The notes beneath the pieces were generated by a model. That model did not search any database and had not been told where the DNA came from. It saw only the letters and a list, made by a program, of their open reading frames with translations. 64,000 nucleotides of DNA, taken from Lachnospiraceae bacterium. Lineage in GTDB: Bacteria > Bacillota > Clostridia > Lachnospirales > Lachnospiraceae. The DNA lies in NCBI GenBank assembly GCA_910574865.1, contig CAJTDN010000010.1, positions 124,001 through 188,000 on the forward strand, given 5' to 3'. Below, in pieces: positions 7,590 to 50,081 of this stretch. The translations under genes were made by a program, and so were the position numbers. Positions within the stretch are counted from its first letter, which is position 1, and each line of letters starts with the position of its first letter.

Positions 7590-7786
7590 CTCTCGCCCTC
7601 CCTTTATAAATGCATAATTTCCTTGTGTCAACGTCAGCAGGCCACGGCAGCACGGCCAAACCATACGCCCCCCGCTTGACGTCAATGCATGGACGACCAT
7701 ATTGCCATCCATACGCCAATGATAACACAGATTTCCCCTTTTTTCCAGCACAAATAAATTAGCGTCGGTGTACAAGCAAGCTCGCA

Positions 7787-7943
7787 GTTACAATTCAGCC
7801 CCGCGCCAGCGCGGGTCCGAATTGTAACGGGCATCACCCGCATTTTTAGTTTGCCTACGGCAAAGCGGGTGATGCATCGGCCAGATTTACGTGCATCCTC
7901 TCGGCCAATCAGCGTGGTGATTGGCCGGGGACTGAACTGTAAC
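7787..7943. mobile_element. MITE-like palindromic element, family A copy 1
   Basis: A 157-bp element with terminal inverted repeats GTTACAATTCAG / CTGAACTGTAAC (11 of 12 matching). It is flanked on both sides by the exact 8-bp direct repeat AGCTCGCA (7779-7786 and 7944-7951), a target-site duplication. Inside are three hairpins: a GC-rich GTTAC...GTAAC stem, CATCACCCGC / GCGGGTGATG, and CATCGGCC...GGCCAATC/GATTGGCC. It contains no reading frame, so movement would need a transposase supplied in trans. Copy 2 at 12337 differs at only a few bases. Confidence 0.88.
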
Positions 7944-8027
7944 AGCTCGCAACGCTCATTCCTTGTTTCCCCATCTTGTGAAAAGTAACCAAATCAAAAA
8001 GTCCCTGATAATTTATTTACAAAAATA

Positions 8028-8056
8028 TTGCATTTATGTTTAAAAAGTATTAAGAT
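8028..8056 (+). promoter_or_regulatory. Promoter of the bactofilin operon
   Basis: TTGCAT (8028-8033), a 17-bp A/T-rich spacer and TAAGAT (8051-8056) lie about 60 bp upstream of the bactofilin start. Confidence 0.55.
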
Positions 8057-8117
8057 AGTATGGCGGCTTGGTTCCGCGGGATTCAAACAAAGAAAGATAA
8101 TACATAGGGGGTAAATC

Positions 8118-8627
8118 ATGTTTAACACAAAAAAGACAAATTTCGAAACCACTTCGGCTTCCACCATTAACACGATTATTGGTGACAAGTCCAAAATCAT
8201 AGGCACGCTGACCGCTTCCGAACCCACTCGCGTGGACGGTGTCCTGGAGGGCAAAATTTTATCGGAAAGCGCCGTCATCATTGGCGAACACGGTTCCATA
8301 AACGGGGACATCGAGGGCCACGACATATTAATTGCAGGAGTCGTGAACGGCAACATCCACGCTTCCGAGCGCATCCGCATCACTTCCACCGGGCGCGTCT
8401 TCGGCGACATTTTCACCAGGACGCTGGTCATTGACGAAGGAGCTTCCTTCAAAGGCAATTGCCGGACGGATGTCGCGGAGGAAATGTCCGCAATCGAGCC
8501 ACTTTCGGACAACGGCCAACAATGGGACGACACTGGCGATGAACCACATTGGAACACGGTCGAGACCATCCAGGAAGAAACCGCTTCCGTTCAAGCGCAA
8601 GATAACAAGAGGTCTAAACGTGCATGA
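8118..8627 (+). CDS. Bactofilin (polymer-forming cytoskeletal protein)
   Basis: A 169-residue protein of the bactofilin family, which forms nucleotide-free filaments at the membrane and positions cell-wall enzymes. Residues about 18-115 make the right-handed beta-solenoid, seen as repeated G-x-I/V/L rungs: IIGDKSKIIGTLTASEP, VDGVLEGKILS, INGDIEGHDILIAGVVNGNI and GRVFGDIFT. Short disordered tails flank the core; the C-terminal tail is acidic, then basic. A good GGGGG-type ribosome site precedes the ATG. The stop overlaps the next start by 4 bp (ATGA), so it is coupled to a NlpC/P60 wall hydrolase, matching the family's usual link to peptidoglycan remodelling. Confidence 0.92.
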   Translation: MFNTKKTNFETTSASTINTIIGDKSKIIGTLTASEPTRVDGVLEGKILSESAVIIGEHGSINGDIEGHDILIAGVVNGNIHASERIRITSTGRVFGDIFTRTLVIDEGASFKGNCRTDVAEEMSAIEPLSDNGQQWDDTGDEPHWNTVETIQEETASVQAQDNKRSKRA

Positions 8628-9727
8628 AATGGGAAAAATTTAAAAAAGAACTTCTTTCCTTAAATTATACGGTGATGCTTCTCCCGCATTCCGAGAGAAA
8701 GCCGATTCATTTTAAGATTCCGGTATGGGTTTTTGGACTTGTCTTTTTCCTGCTTCTCATTTTTACCGGGACATGCCTGTTTTTCGCCGGTTCACGCTAC
8801 CGGCTCGCGGAGGTGCAAAAGGAAAAGGAAGAACTGGAGCAGGAATGGATACGGCTTACGGAAGAAAAGCAGGCTGCAGACGAGGAAAACGAACTTTTAA
8901 GGATTGCCCAGGAGGCGCAGGAAGAAGAACTAAAAAAACTGGAACAAGAAGCCCGGGACATGATCCAGGAGCTGAACGAATTGATACAACGGGAAAATGA
9001 AATCCGCCAGGAACTCGGGCTGACACAAGATTCTTTCGGGCAAGGCGCCTTTGAAACGGACGGGGAAGACCCCGAATCCGGAGATGAGGCCATGGACGGC
9101 TCGCCGCGGGCATCACGTGAACACATGCCCTATTCTTATAAAATGGATGCCGTTCAAAAAATGGCAAGCTCCGGCAGGTTTGAATCGCTCTCTACCGACT
9201 CAATCACCATCCTGATGGAAGACATCGAGGGCTTCCAGTCCATCCAGGAGGAGCTGGGTCTCCTCCAAGACCGCCTTGCAGAAAAGACGGCGGCATACGG
9301 CGAGTACATGGGCGCCATCACCGCCAAAAAGGAAGCCGAGGCAGAAGAACGTGTACGCAAGGAAGCCGTTCGCGCGTCAATCGTGGACACGGCCTTGTCT
9401 TATGTCGGCGGCCCTTACGTGTACGGCGGCTCAAACCCCAATACGGGCACGGATTGTTCCGGCTTTACAAAATACGTTTATGAGCAAGTCACCGGCATCG
9501 GCCTGAACCGTACCGCGGCATCCCAGTCCACGCAAGGCCATCCGGTTTCCGCCGAAACCGCAAGGCCGGGGGACCTGGTATTCTACGGCAGCGGTTCCAT
9601 CAGCCATGTGGCAATTTACATAGGGGACGGCCAAATCGTACACGCCGCCAACAGCCGCAAGGGAATCATCCAATCCGACTTATACTATCAGACCCCGGTA
9701 AAAATCGTAAGCATTTTGGATGACTAA
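8624..9727 (+). CDS. Membrane-anchored NlpC/P60 peptidoglycan endopeptidase with coiled coil
   Basis: A 367-residue protein. A short cytosolic N-terminus (MKWEKFKKELLSLNYTVMLL) is followed by one membrane segment at about 34-54. A long Glu/Lys-rich coiled coil covers about 57-130, then a linker and second helical stretch. The C-terminal NlpC/P60 domain (about 248-367) has catalytic Cys in GTDCSGFTKYVY, catalytic His in ISHVAIYIGDG and the third polar position in IVHAANS. It should cleave peptide stems of peptidoglycan outside the membrane. The N-terminal layout resembles bactofilin-linked M23 peptidases (LmdC-like), but here the catalytic domain is of a different class. It is coupled to the bactofilin by an ATGA overlap. 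Confidence 0.9.
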   Translation: MKWEKFKKELLSLNYTVMLLPHSERKPIHFKIPVWVFGLVFFLLLIFTGTCLFFAGSRYRLAEVQKEKEELEQEWIRLTEEKQAADEENELLRIAQEAQEEELKKLEQEARDMIQELNELIQRENEIRQELGLTQDSFGQGAFETDGEDPESGDEAMDGSPRASREHMPYSYKMDAVQKMASSGRFESLSTDSITILMEDIEGFQSIQEELGLLQDRLAEKTAAYGEYMGAITAKKEAEAEERVRKEAVRASIVDTALSYVGGPYVYGGSNPNTGTDCSGFTKYVYEQVTGIGLNRTAASQSTQGHPVSAETARPGDLVFYGSGSISHVAIYIGDGQIVHAANSRKGIIQSDLYYQTPVKIVSILDD

Positions 9728-9873
9728 ACAAGGCTAGCGTGACGTCGTCGCCATTTGTGGATTTTTCCCACTGCAAGGCAATCAACGTACGCCAGCCCAT
9801 CTGTTCCTTTATCCGCAAAAACAACGGCGGGTCGTAAGCACGAAGCCAATTTATCCGGCCATTCCTGAACGTC

Positions 9874-10812
9874 TTACTTCATCCGCTCTTGTATCCAGCC
9901 ATAAAAATCTTCCATCACCTGCCGCCTGTCCGTCTCGTTGAGCAACTCGTGGCGGTCGCCCGCGTACAGTTTAATCGTCACGTCCTTGATTCCCGCCGCC
10001 TTGTATTTCTCGTACACCTTGCGCACGCCCTTGCCGAACCCACCGCATGGATCCTCCATGCCGGCGGCGAACAAAATCGGCAGCGTTTTGGGAACCATGA
10101 ACAAATTCTCCCGCTTCTGCATTTTCAACATGCCGCCCAGCATGTGGTAATAGGCGTTGACCGTGAACATGAACGAACACAGCGGATCCGAAATATACGC
10201 ATCCAGCTTCTCCGAATCGCTCGTCACCCAGTCGGCCCGGGTGCGCGTCGGCTTGAACGAATTATTAAAAGATCCCGTCACCATGTGGTCCACCAGCCTG
10301 CTGCGGTAATGCCCGCCCTTGACCAAGGCAATCATCTTGCAAAGGGCGCGCCCCCCGTACAGCACGATTTCCGGCTGCTCCTGCACGACGCCGATGACCA
10401 GCGCGCCGGCCAGCCCGCTCCCGTACATCTGGATATACTGCCTCAGCAAAATGGAACCCATGCTGTGCCCGAGCATGAAATATGGAACGTCCGGATATTT
10501 CCTCATGGTGCGGGTGCGCAAGGTATGCATGTCGCTTATCACGCACGCATTTCCATACTTTTGGTGAAAATACCCATATTCCGACTTGCCCTGCACGGAT
10601 TTCCCGTGTCCCAAATGGTCATTGCCGACCACGTAGAACCCCCGCCCACAAAGATACCTCGCGAACTCGTCATAACGGTCAACGTACTCCACCATCCCAT
10701 GGCAAAGCTGAATCACGCCCACGACCTCGTCTTCCGGTTTCCACTCAACCGTGTGTATCTCTGTATTGCCATCCTTTGACGGGAAATAAAATTCGTCCTT
10801 CATTTTATCCAC
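9874..10812 (-). CDS. Alpha/beta hydrolase, monoacylglycerol-lipase/lysophospholipase-like
   Basis: A serine hydrolase of about 312 residues. The fold markers are LCHGMVEYVDRYDEFARYL near residue 36, GNDHLGHGKS near 63, the nucleophile elbow GHSMGS near 115, the acid in AAGMEDPCG near 245 and the His in GDRHELLNE near 285. These place it in the Hydrolase_4 (PldB-like) group. Translation probably starts at the GTG at 10812, which shares one base with the citrate synthase stop (TAGTG); an ATG at 10803 is an alternative. It is therefore cotranscribed with citrate synthase. The physiological ester is unknown, and a link to central metabolism is positional only. Confidence 0.88.
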   Translation of the reverse strand: MDKMKDEFYFPSKDGNTEIHTVEWKPEDEVVGVIQLCHGMVEYVDRYDEFARYLCGRGFYVVGNDHLGHGKSVQGKSEYGYFHQKYGNACVISDMHTLRTRTMRKYPDVPYFMLGHSMGSILLRQYIQMYGSGLAGALVIGVVQEQPEIVLYGGRALCKMIALVKGGHYRSRLVDHMVTGSFNNSFKPTRTRADWVTSDSEKLDAYISDPLCSFMFTVNAYYHMLGGMLKMQKRENLFMVPKTLPILFAAGMEDPCGGFGKGVRKVYEKYKAAGIKDVTIKLYAGDRHELLNETDRRQVMEDFYGWIQERMK

Positions 10813-12182
10813 TACCTATCCTTCAATTGAATATAGTCACGATACGGTGCCAACGGCTTGTACGCCGGACGAATGATTTTGTCCGCGTTTTGCAGCTCTT
10901 CCAACCGGTGCGCGCTCCACCCGACAATCCTGGCCGCCGCGAAAATGGGCGTGTACAATGCCGGAGGCAGGCCAAGCATGCTATATACCAAGCCACTGTA
11001 AAAGTCGACGTTCGCGTTGACGCCCTTGTAAATCCGACGCTTCTCCCCGATAATCTGCGGCGCCATGTGCTCCACCTTTTCATATAGCGCATATTCCTTC
11101 TCGAAATGCTTCTCCAACGCAAGCTGTTTGACAAACTTCTTGAATATCTCCGCCCTGGGGTCGGAAACGGAATAAATCGCGTGGCCCATCCCGTAAATAA
11201 GCCCCTTCCGATCAAATGCCTTCTTGTCCAGCAAATCCGACAAGTACCTGCGAATCTGGTCGTCGTCCGTCCAATCCGTCAGCACTCCCTTCATGTCCTC
11301 GAACATCTGGGTCACCTTGACGTTTGCCCCGCCATGCTTCGGCCCTTTAAGGGAAGACATGGCCGCCGCGATCGTAGAATACGTGTCGGTGCCGGAAGAA
11401 GTCACCACGTGGGTCGTGAACGTGGAGTTGTTGCCACCGCCATGATCCATGTGAAGCACCAGCGCCATGTCAAGAAGCCTTGCCTCCAGTTCACTGTACT
11501 CCCTGTTCTCACGAAGCATCATGAGAATGTTTTCCGCAGTCGAAAGCTCCGGGTTCGGGGCATAAATATACAAATCTTGTCCAATTTTATAATTATATGC
11601 GTGATAGCCGTAAACCATCAGCATCGGAAACTGGCTAATCAAGTTGATGCACTGGCGCAGGACGTTCGGCAGGCTGGTGTCGTCCGCCTTGTCGTCATAT
11701 GCGTACAGCTGCAGGATGCAACGCGAAATGCTGTTCATCATGTCCGGGCTCGGTGCTTTCATTATGACGTCACGCGTGAAATTCGGCGGCAGCATCCTGC
11801 GGGCTGAAAGCATGTCCTGAAAATCCTCAAGCTCGGCCTCCGTCGGAAGTTCGCCAAACAGCAACAGATACGCGGTCTCCTCAAATCCCGGATGCTTCGC
11901 CTCCAAAAATCCCTTTACGATATCCTTGATGTTGTACCCCCGGTAATAAAGGTTACCAGGACAAGGTACTTCCTCCCCGTCCACGACTTTTTTCGCGCAG
12001 ACGTCGGAAACGTTCGTCAATCCGGCGAGCACGCCTTTCCCGTTCAAGTCGCGCAGGCCTCGTTTTACCTCATACTCCGTGTACAGTTCCTTCTCAATCG
12101 CGTTGTTCCTCTCGCACTTCGCGGCCAACTCCTGGATCCGCGGAGTGTTCTCAAAAATAATATTGTCAATGTTTTTCGCCAT
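10812..12182 (-). CDS. gltA: Citrate synthase (citrate/2-methylcitrate synthase family)
   Basis: Condenses acetyl-CoA with oxaloacetate to form citrate. The protein is 456 residues. Conserved sites are the substrate His in LVLHMDHGGGNNSTF, the catalytic His in SSLKGPKHGGAN and the second His with the following region in IYGMGHAIYSVSDPRA. A family-typical small segment FYSGLVYSMLGLPPALYTPI and AARIVGWSAHRLEE close the fold. An N-terminal extension of about 60 residues precedes the core. Transcription probably begins at the promoter 12272-12300. The stop overlaps the hydrolase start. No aconitase or isocitrate dehydrogenase is nearby. A 2-methylcitrate specificity cannot be excluded. Confidence 0.93.
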   Translation of the reverse strand: MAKNIDNIIFENTPRIQELAAKCERNNAIEKELYTEYEVKRGLRDLNGKGVLAGLTNVSDVCAKKVVDGEEVPCPGNLYYRGYNIKDIVKGFLEAKHPGFEETAYLLLFGELPTEAELEDFQDMLSARRMLPPNFTRDVIMKAPSPDMMNSISRCILQLYAYDDKADDTSLPNVLRQCINLISQFPMLMVYGYHAYNYKIGQDLYIYAPNPELSTAENILMMLRENREYSELEARLLDMALVLHMDHGGGNNSTFTTHVVTSSGTDTYSTIAAAMSSLKGPKHGGANVKVTQMFEDMKGVLTDWTDDDQIRRYLSDLLDKKAFDRKGLIYGMGHAIYSVSDPRAEIFKKFVKQLALEKHFEKEYALYEKVEHMAPQIIGEKRRIYKGVNANVDFYSGLVYSMLGLPPALYTPIFAAARIVGWSAHRLEELQNADKIIRPAYKPLAPYRDYIQLKDR

Positions 12183-12271
12183 TGGCCTCCCTCTCTTCTA
12201 TGTAAGTCTCTTCGTGGCACGTTGCCATCCAACCGGCAAATCTTGTGCCTTTCGTCCACTTCGACTTTTTT

Positions 12272-12300
12272 ATTATACTAAAAACCATGGATATATACAA
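12272..12300 (-). promoter_or_regulatory. Promoter of the citrate synthase operon
   Basis: Minus-strand TTGTAT (12295-12300) and TATAAT (12272-12277) are separated by 17 bp, about 90 bp upstream of the citrate synthase start. Confidence 0.65.
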
Positions 12301-12336
12301 TGAATTGAGTATTAAATCTTTATGAACTGGAAAAAC

Positions 12337-12493
12337 GTTACAATTCAGCCCCGCGCCAGCGCGGGTTCGAATTGTAACGGGCATCACCCGCATTTTTAGT
12401 TTGCCTACGGCAAAGCGGGTGATGCATCGGCCAGATTTACATGCATCCTCTCGGCCAATCAGCGTGGTGATTGGCCGGGGACTGAACTGTAAC
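12337..12493. mobile_element. MITE-like palindromic element, family A copy 2
   Basis: A 157-bp near-identical copy of the element at 7787-7943, in the same orientation. It has the same GTTACAATTCAG / CTGAACTGTAAC ends and is flanked by the perfect 8-bp direct repeat GGAAAAAC (12329-12336 and 12494-12501). The flanks differ from those of copy 1, which shows insertion rather than duplication of a larger segment. It lies just upstream of the citrate synthase promoter. Confidence 0.9.
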
Positions 12494-12563
12494 GGAAAAA
12501 CAAAAATATGAGATTCCTGCAATATATAAATGATAACACGGCCAACTTTGGCAAGCAGCCAAA

Positions 12564-31735: not shown

Positions 31736-31794
31736 GTTACAGTTTAGCCATGACTTGGCCGTGCGGCAGGGCGCACAGCCCCGTGAACAGTAAC
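31736..31794. repeat. Short internally deleted MITE-like element
   Basis: 59 bp starting GTTACAGTTTAG and ending GTGAACAGTAAC. Its right part (GGCCGTGCGGCAGGGCGC onward) is identical to the right end of the 31803 element, while the middle is missing. Only 8 bp (TGAGGACA) separate it from that element. Confidence 0.7.
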
Positions 31795-31802
31795 TGAGGA
31801 CA

Positions 31803-31950
31803 GTTACAATTCACGGCCTAACCGGCCGCGATTGTAACGGCATCCAGCCATTTAAAATTGCCTACGGCAATGGGCTGGATGCCCTATCGACACCATCACT
31901 TTATCGGACGGTGGCCGTGCGGCAGGGCGCACAGCCCCGTGAACAGTAAC
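31803..31950. mobile_element. MITE-like palindromic element, family B copy 1
   Basis: 148 bp with ends GTTACAATTCACGG and CCGTGAACAGTAAC (12 of 14 complementary). It is flanked by TGAGGACA (31795-31802) and TGGGGACA (31951-31958), a 7-of-8 target duplication. Internal hairpins are GGCC-rich GTTAC...GTAAC, CATCCAGCCATT...GGGCTGGATG with inner GCC-TACG-GGC, and a third around GGACGGTGGCC. No ORF. Copy 2 is at 49934. Confidence 0.85.
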
Positions 31951-49933: not shown

Positions 49934-50081
49934 GTTACAATTCACGGCCTAACCGGCCGTGGATTGTAACGGCATCCAGCCATTCAAAATTGCCTCTGGC
50001 AATGGGCTGGATGCCCACTGGCACCATCACTTTATCGGACGGTGGCCGTGCGGCAGGGCGCACAGCCCCGTGAACAGTAAC
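49934..50081. mobile_element. MITE-like palindromic element, family B copy 2
   Basis: 148 bp nearly identical to 31803-31950 with the same GTTACAATTCACGG / CCGTGAACAGTAAC ends and internal hairpins. The flanks CATCCTGG (49926-49933) and ATCCTGG directly after the right tip (or CATCCTGG if the final C is shared) form a 7-8 bp target duplication. It sits between the GH3 promoter region and the pilus-like operon promoter. Confidence 0.85.

Follow-up and report, generated by a model that had tools for sequence, protein, structure and literature searches.

Two copies of a miniature element in the window

The window analysed here is a whole stretch of 64,000 nt from a Lachnospiraceae bacterium with a draft genome of 5.33 Mb (assembly GCA_910574865.1, contig CAJTDN010000010.1, positions 124,001 to 188,000; G000:C10:124001-188000 in our numbering). 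It carries two near-identical 157-bp elements, copies 1 and 2, which resemble a miniature inverted-repeat transposable element (MITE). The copies are identical at 155 of 157 positions, both begin with GTTACAATTCAG and end with CTGAACTGTAAC, and have 12-bp terminal inverted repeats (TIRs, GTTACAATTCAG / GTTACAGTTCAG). Each is flanked by a different exact 8-bp target duplication, AGCTCGCA at copy 1 and GGAAAAAC at copy 2. A sequence-only reading of the window had described these two copies, and their coordinates and both duplications were confirmed; its guess of a Lachnospiraceae host is also in keeping with the results. The three internal hairpins that it proposed, here termed H1, H2 and H3, are likewise predicted on the subfamily consensus, and no convincing gene was found inside the 157-bp copies, where the open reading frames (ORFs) crossing the sites are mechanical. 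Coordinates are listed in Table 1, together with those of a second subfamily, B.

Table 1. Positions of the MITEs, their parts and their target duplications in the window.
Feature	Position	Strand	Remarks
Left target-site duplication, copy 1	7779..7786	.	AGCTCGCA, exact
MITE subfamily A, copy 1, 157 bp	7787..7943	+	top strand reads in the order H1-H2-H3
H1, copy 1	7787..7828	+	terminal palindrome: left TIR and inverted TIR copy
H2, copy 1	7831..7875	+	hairpin with 5' bulge, apical stem/loop GCC-TAC-GGC
H3, copy 1	7900..7929	+	third hairpin
Right TIR, copy 1	7932..7943	-	GTTACAGTTCAG
Right target-site duplication, copy 1	7944..7951	.	AGCTCGCA, exact
Left target-site duplication, copy 2	12329..12336	.	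GGAAAAAC, exact
MITE subfamily A, copy 2, 157 bp	12337..12493	+	10 congeners without A or B match at orthologous loci
Right target-site duplication, copy 2	12494..12501	.	GGAAAAAC, exact
Shortened copy, 59 bp	31736..31794	+	ends in a right end of B type; immediately precedes the B copy 31803..31950; by sequence inspection
MITE subfamily B copy, 148 bp	31803..31950	+	duplication TGAGGACA / TGGGGACA, 7/8
MITE subfamily B copy, 148 bp	49934..50081	+	duplication CATCCTGG (8 bp, counting the last C) or ATCCTGG (7 bp)

Copy 2 sits upstream of a minus-strand gene (10812-12182) that its translation alone suggests to be citrate synthase. About 60 bp upstream of this gene (window 12263-12336) are conserved in congeners, and the conservation stops near the MITE insertion site.

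Copies and target duplications in the genome

Searching the own genome with copy 1 gave 52 matches at E ≤ 0.001, part of which are the H1 palindrome matching itself on the opposite strand, and eight matches were identical over all 157 bases, the window copy counted (40 of the 97 first-look candidates scored). Subfamily B (148 bp) gave 46 matches, with two full copies inside the window. The end motif GTTACWRTTCAS occurred 162 times in the genome vs. 2 times for a reversed control pattern, therefore its abundance is not due to chance.

To evaluate the target duplications, 60 A and B loci were fetched, of which 51 were evaluated, 7 were partial and 2 were left out. The 51 near-full-length copies comprised 32 with an exact 8-bp duplication, 7 with one mismatch and 12 with more, although some of these 12 may be misses owing to the narrow offsets allowed. 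Longer shifted repeats are visible at L010, L014, L033 and L047.

Empty sites and distribution among genomes

The comparison of orthologous sites with other genomes covered copy 2. Regions orthologous to its site were present in all 10 congeners searched (G011 not among them), and none of these loci contained an A or B element at E ≤ 1e-3. One congener, G002, aligned through the site without an insert and with an 8-base gap beside the junction, while the downstream side was without alignment in the remaining nine. A paralogous empty site was found in another congener, G007, where two copies carry the duplication GCCAGTAA and a third paralog (L177:9838-9949) has no element at 99.1% identity over 112 bp. 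The earlier claim of recent transposition is therefore well founded: identical copies with different exact duplications, an empty orthologous site for copy 2 and an empty paralogous site in G007 all agree with it. Nested A-in-B insertions (L003, L004, L022) were also considered as empty sites and were not clean.

Subfamily A matched 7 and subfamily B 10 of the 61 genomes searched, own genome counted, all of one genus apart from G014. A pattern built on the H2 core was found in 21 of the 397 genomes of a family sample (control pattern, 0), and in a class sample of 196 only in the own genome; these counts are lower bounds for the whole set, as the pattern is strict and misses subfamily A. By title, the H2-core scan returned at least 117 stretches, and among the matches listed were Hungatella, Blautia, Roseburia, Parablautia, Eisenbergiella, Mediterraneibacter, Lacrimispora and Lachnospiraceae bacterium, with some titles giving just Clostridia, Clostridiaceae, Eubacteriales or uncultured bacterium. 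Of the 131 H2-core places in L235-L381 with room to look, 72 had a duplication (≤1 mismatch; 55 exact) together with both ends; a further 16 places had no such room. The set as a whole spans the Lachnospiraceae and follows a fixed plan, and the window element represents a single branch of it.

Candidate partner among IS66-type insertion sequences

To search for a partner, 40 stretches of G007 were scanned for paired ends and duplications with no family assumed. The scan returned the MITEs and a 2458-bp insertion sequence (IS) encoding two proteins of 121 and 587 aa. The 587-aa protein matches the IS66 transposase (PF03050, 41.6 bits at a cut-off of 23.1) and scored 150.8 bits against NF033517, below the cut-off of 180, while the 121-aa protein had no match in Pfam or NCBIfam. 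G007 holds six full-length copies of this transposase gene and three copies of a second one at 51% identity, which lies in an IS of 2176 bp that has an open frame of 530 aa. Four of the six former and all three of the latter are complete, each bounded on either side by GTTACTATTCACAG and enclosed by an exact 8-bp duplication; that is, exact duplications flank 7/7 complete copies of ISs with an IS66 DDE transposase, and the two other copies of the 2458-bp IS gene are without one end. The TIR of these ISs begins GTTAC, unlike the IS66 family consensus, which starts GTAA, therefore they are filed only as IS66-related, in an ISBst12-like group.

The loci fetched to that point were then scanned for GTWAY ends with an exact 8-bp duplication, which yielded 96 elements of 60-450 bp and eight of 700-4500 bp, the latter being six IS66-type elements, one composite and one segmental duplication. 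Four further IS66-bearing loci with duplications had ends GTAAGC, GTAAAC or GTAACC/GTAAGC, indicating that not all IS66 elements here share the GTTAC TIR. G004, and G086 from another genus, hold IS66-like copies that end in GTTAC but have no duplications. Between MITEs and ISs, BLAST matches (E ≤ 0.01) were confined to the ends (14-24 bp) except for one internal 14-mer (L236). An experimentally active IS of the ISBst12 group is described in an excerpt of PMC12898284 with an 8-bp repeat and the TIR GTAACTGCTCAGCA, which matches the GTAACTGCTCAG end of the MITE at L330. Taken together, the helper is likely a GTTAC-ended IS66-family (ISBst12-like) IS acting in trans.

A conserved three-hairpin fold

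Full members of the set read from left to right as left TIR within the palindrome H1, hairpin H2, spacer, hairpin H3 and right TIR, and relatives of the element are mostly 130-160 bp long. In H2 a 5' bulge is conserved, and a three-base loop closed by C-G is usual. For 32 diverged elements, RNAalifold gave 20 pairs, 14 of them with double-sided change. In the structure that we named, 83.9% of the cells of these elements were paired vs. 67.1% in shuffles and ≤43.9% in slid controls, and the covariation score was 0.411 vs. 0.142, a value reached by 0 of 500 shuffles. The number of further pair types, 58 vs. 52.7, was a weak signal, as 26 of 500 shuffles were as high. Since several alignment rows have the lower stem of H2 in a shifted register, it was also paired per sequence in its best register with one bulge allowed, which gave 343 Watson-Crick pairs of 362, with 1 G.T to 5 A.C among the others. 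The fold has thus been kept while most letters changed, with strong compensatory change in the 32 diverged members.

Modules are also swapped between subfamilies, as L065 joins an A-like right half to a different left half, and a different H3 is present in four members (L280, and L289, L314 and L355, which are titled Blautia). Two readings of H2 were dropped: a terminator on the bottom strand, because subfamily A is without a T-run after the hairpin, and a UNCG tetraloop, because pairing gives a three-base loop.

Strand preference and gene context

Without a role for the fold, A.C and G.T mismatches in the stems should be equally likely; an A.C mismatch on the strand as written is a wobble pair on the other strand. 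Among 214 hairpins (H1 found for 152, H3 for 166), A.C outnumbered G.T by 183 to 64. The excess held when one representative was taken per identity cluster, from 26:7 (n=39) at a 70% cut, through 33:9 (n=52), 40:16 (n=66) and 58:19 (n=89), to 126:52 (n=152) at 92%. H1, H3 and the lower stem of H2 showed it at roughly 3:1; therefore it is apparently the bottom strand, complementary to the one written here, whose ability to fold is maintained. In 52 of the 79 hairpins from loci below L235, a group not fetched by the core pattern, the apical loop on the bottom strand is GNA, a loop type that in DNA is very stable when closed by C-G.

The neighbouring genes of 179 distinct sites were called with a crude ORF caller. 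The element lay between divergent genes at 49 sites and between convergent genes at 11; between co-directional genes, the bottom strand was sense at 57 sites and the top strand at 32, and a neighbour gene was not found at 30 sites. This context hints at an effect on transcripts.

Shortened, possible composite and hairpin-tip elements

Solo H1 units of 27-41 bp with exact 8-bp duplications were found at five places (L412:448-488, L423:349-385, L435:323-359, L240:2895-2922 and L342:2238-2264). The own genome has one of the five and, in addition, a 30-bp unit with a 7/8 duplication. In one check of 18 candidate places, 2 had exact duplications, 4 had 6/8 and 12 had none. About 100 bp separate the H1 inner arm from the right TIR, of which it is a direct repeat, and the simplest account of solo H1 is deletion between the two.

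Three further units of 54-94 bp (L316:7487-7580, L324:880-954 and L415:404-457), with 7 or 8 of 8 duplicated bases, are internal deletions of the family. At L169:14369-16360 in G007, a PD-(D/E)XK (Rpn-like) gene lies between two B-type MITEs of like orientation, and an exact 8-bp duplication, GTGTAATT, encloses the entire unit of 1992 bp; this unit is either a composite transposon or a circle recombined into a resident MITE.

A second hairpin repeat of about 50 bp (with TTTAG.ACGGACCG) recurs at the hairpin tips of MITEs (L004 near 1384, L192, L169, L180, L185, L243 near 1316 and L261 near 1549; inverted in L085; within H3 in L003). It also occurs outside recognisable MITEs in L017, L288 and L375, and seems to be a further small mobile unit, with hairpin tips as its targets.

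Interpretation and alternative explanations

The 12-bp inverted ends, 8-bp duplications, identical copies, empty sites and gene-less three-hairpin interior mark the element as a MITE. The best explanation, to which we give a probability of about 0.78, is that each copy is a mobile non-autonomous DNA transposon, mobilised in trans by an IS66-type IS, with an interior kept for the folding of one strand. The DDE transposase of the GTTAC-ended, ISBst12-like IS66 group would act in trans on both ends, and the element would be inserted with an 8-bp staggered cut. The non-coding interior would be retained because folding is required of one strand, namely that complementary to the one written, a role of the fold that we infer. 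During read-through from neighbouring genes, the bottom strand may fold as RNA, making copies tolerable or stabilising the transcript; alternatively, folding of single-stranded DNA or a cruciform may bring the two close ends together in transposition. RNA folding is favoured over DNA folding at little better than even odds. Deletion between the direct repeats formed by the H1 inner arm and the right end would leave the 27-41 bp solo H1, like the solo long terminal repeat of a retrotransposon.

Several observations weigh against parts of this explanation. An intact IS66 transposase was not found in the readable own genome, a remnant at most, in a search with the G007 protein, PF03050 and NF033517 as queries that covered the draft except contigs C42-C82 and half of C40 and was confined to this transposase family. 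The idea of the sequence-only reading that the element is mobilised in trans is thus backed by congener ISs of the IS66 family with the same 12-bp ends and 8-bp duplications, but no intact partner was seen in the readable part of the own genome; likewise, the IS with matching termini that it suggested looking for was found in the congener G007 and not in that readable part. Among genomes of other genera, the G007 transposase had relatives in just 1 of 20 that were positive for the pattern and in 2 of 20 that were negative, therefore no co-occurrence of MITE and IS66 transposase was seen across genera. The remaining 59 of the 131 H2-core places showed no such pair of ends with duplication; these are old, cut or perhaps other hairpins, and no ends were seen at two Pseudobutyrivibrio loci among them (L270 and L340). 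As for the strand, the H2 apical stem departed from the bias (0 A.C to 3 G.T in the 39 representatives, 8 to 5 overall), and the raw alignment of the H2 lower stem gave 27 G.T to 8 A.C, which we attribute to rows in the wrong register. Whole-element energy favoured the bottom strand weakly, in 22 of 32 members as RNA (p=0.076) and 20 of 32 as DNA (p=0.12), and three of the four members with a different H3 have a more stable top strand as RNA. Part of the strand bias may also be mutational, since in recent copies G>A slightly exceeded C>T (paired, 42:34 and 20:19), unpaired positions included (37:19 and 21:15); this effect would be mild, of the same sign, and smaller than the 3:1 in stems.

A more specific account, possible and put forward tentatively, is that of a structure-dependent parasite, whose folded bottom strand, as transcript or single-stranded DNA, would be recognised by IS66-type machinery or a host factor, so that the element would be defined by a shape maintained throughout the Lachnospiraceae and not by its internal sequence. 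The palindromes of what would still be a MITE could be a by-product of DNA repair, with hairpin-templated (quasipalindrome) correction copying changes from arm to arm and the fold unused. The long, near-perfect arms fit such correction, as does the finding that recent copies gain changes freely whether a position is paired or not. Such correction should show no preference for a strand, however, whereas A.C exceeds G.T about threefold in every stem but the H2 apical one, and unpaired features, the 5' bulge and the three-base apical loop, are kept as well. For the loop, this argument uses the 79 hairpins from loci below L235, 52 of which have TNC as written, because some other members were fetched with a pattern that fixes these two features. 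Repair alone is thus an unlikely source of the fold.

The mobilising enzyme could also be a DDE transposase of another type, located in the unread contigs. The missing partner in the readable genome and the poor co-occurrence of IS66 speak for it, and contigs C42-C82 and the non-IS66 families lay outside the search; yet in the loci scanned, every long element that combined such ends with an exact 8-bp duplication was IS66-type, bar the one composite and the one segmental duplication, which makes another enzyme distinctly improbable. Whether the solo H1 units transposed themselves as minimal elements, as their exact duplications at five places would allow, is doubtful, since the direct repeats about 100 bp apart make simple deletion sufficient and no identical solo H1 was shown at several sites. 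A conserved fold in an intergenic position would also suit a fixed ancestral repeat or host regulatory element, such as an RNA gene or terminator, that has lost mobility. Identical copies with different exact duplications contradict this, no Rfam family matched the element, and for copy 2 it is refuted by the 10 congeners whose orthologous site has no A or B match, leaving it with hardly any probability.

Relation to known elements

With Rfam covariance models, no family matched the element at its gathering score, and only sub-threshold matches (E 0.78-6.2) were obtained. In the open-licence literature, no title or abstract opening describing it was found, which is no proof of its being unpublished. 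Beyond the sequence-only reading, the new points are how far the set extends, which group is a candidate for the partner, and that the shape is conserved in a strand-specific way. For gut Lachnospiraceae this adds a family of mini-transposons that was active recently and has a candidate transposase; at the sites examined, the element lies more often between divergent than convergent genes. As a comparative data set, the family would allow selection on a MITE's fold, and on one strand of it, to be told apart from selection on sequence, which touches on the reason for structure in bacterial MITEs.

BOX is a structured bacterial MITE, and REP elements, which are not known to make a target duplication of the kind seen here, are associated with HUH transposases. 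Other structured bacterial MITEs are ERIC/IRU, Correia/NEMIS, RUP and CIR; in excerpts of PMC2229807 and PMC10969869 they appear, like the element here, as gene-less or nearly so, about 100-200 bp long and in most cases with terminal repeats, and their transcripts are predicted to form stable stem-loops, some being reported to affect neighbouring mRNAs. Unlike them, as far as these excerpts describe them, the present element has 8-bp duplications, GTTAC/GTAAC ends and an IS66-like partner, three separate hairpins, one with a conserved bulge, and a fold that compensatory changes have maintained in different genera, with one strand preferred. The likeness to REP/REPIN elements, as presented in part of PMC3733652, is that both are short, high-copy, palindromic and thought to be mobilised in trans.

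The ISBst12 group of the IS66 family, e.g., ISDge4, shares with the elements studied here the 8-bp direct repeat and, in the G007 ISs, the IS66-type transposase, and its TIR resembles the MITE ends GTAACTGCTCAG and GTTACTGTTCAC (PMC12898284, in excerpt); IS66 members with 8-bp repeats also appear in part of PMC3281130. Compared with the group as excerpted, the MITEs are gene-less and share little but ends with the ISs, and the 2458-bp IS has an extra 121-aa ORF and ends that begin GTTAC.

Above threshold, Rfam found two tRNAs and a Clostridiales-1 RNA (RF01699, 57960-58176) in the window, and one T-box in L273. Near position 5808 of L322, tandem H2-like hairpins (CCCAT..AAAATTGCCTNCGGCAATGGG) occur without MITE ends.

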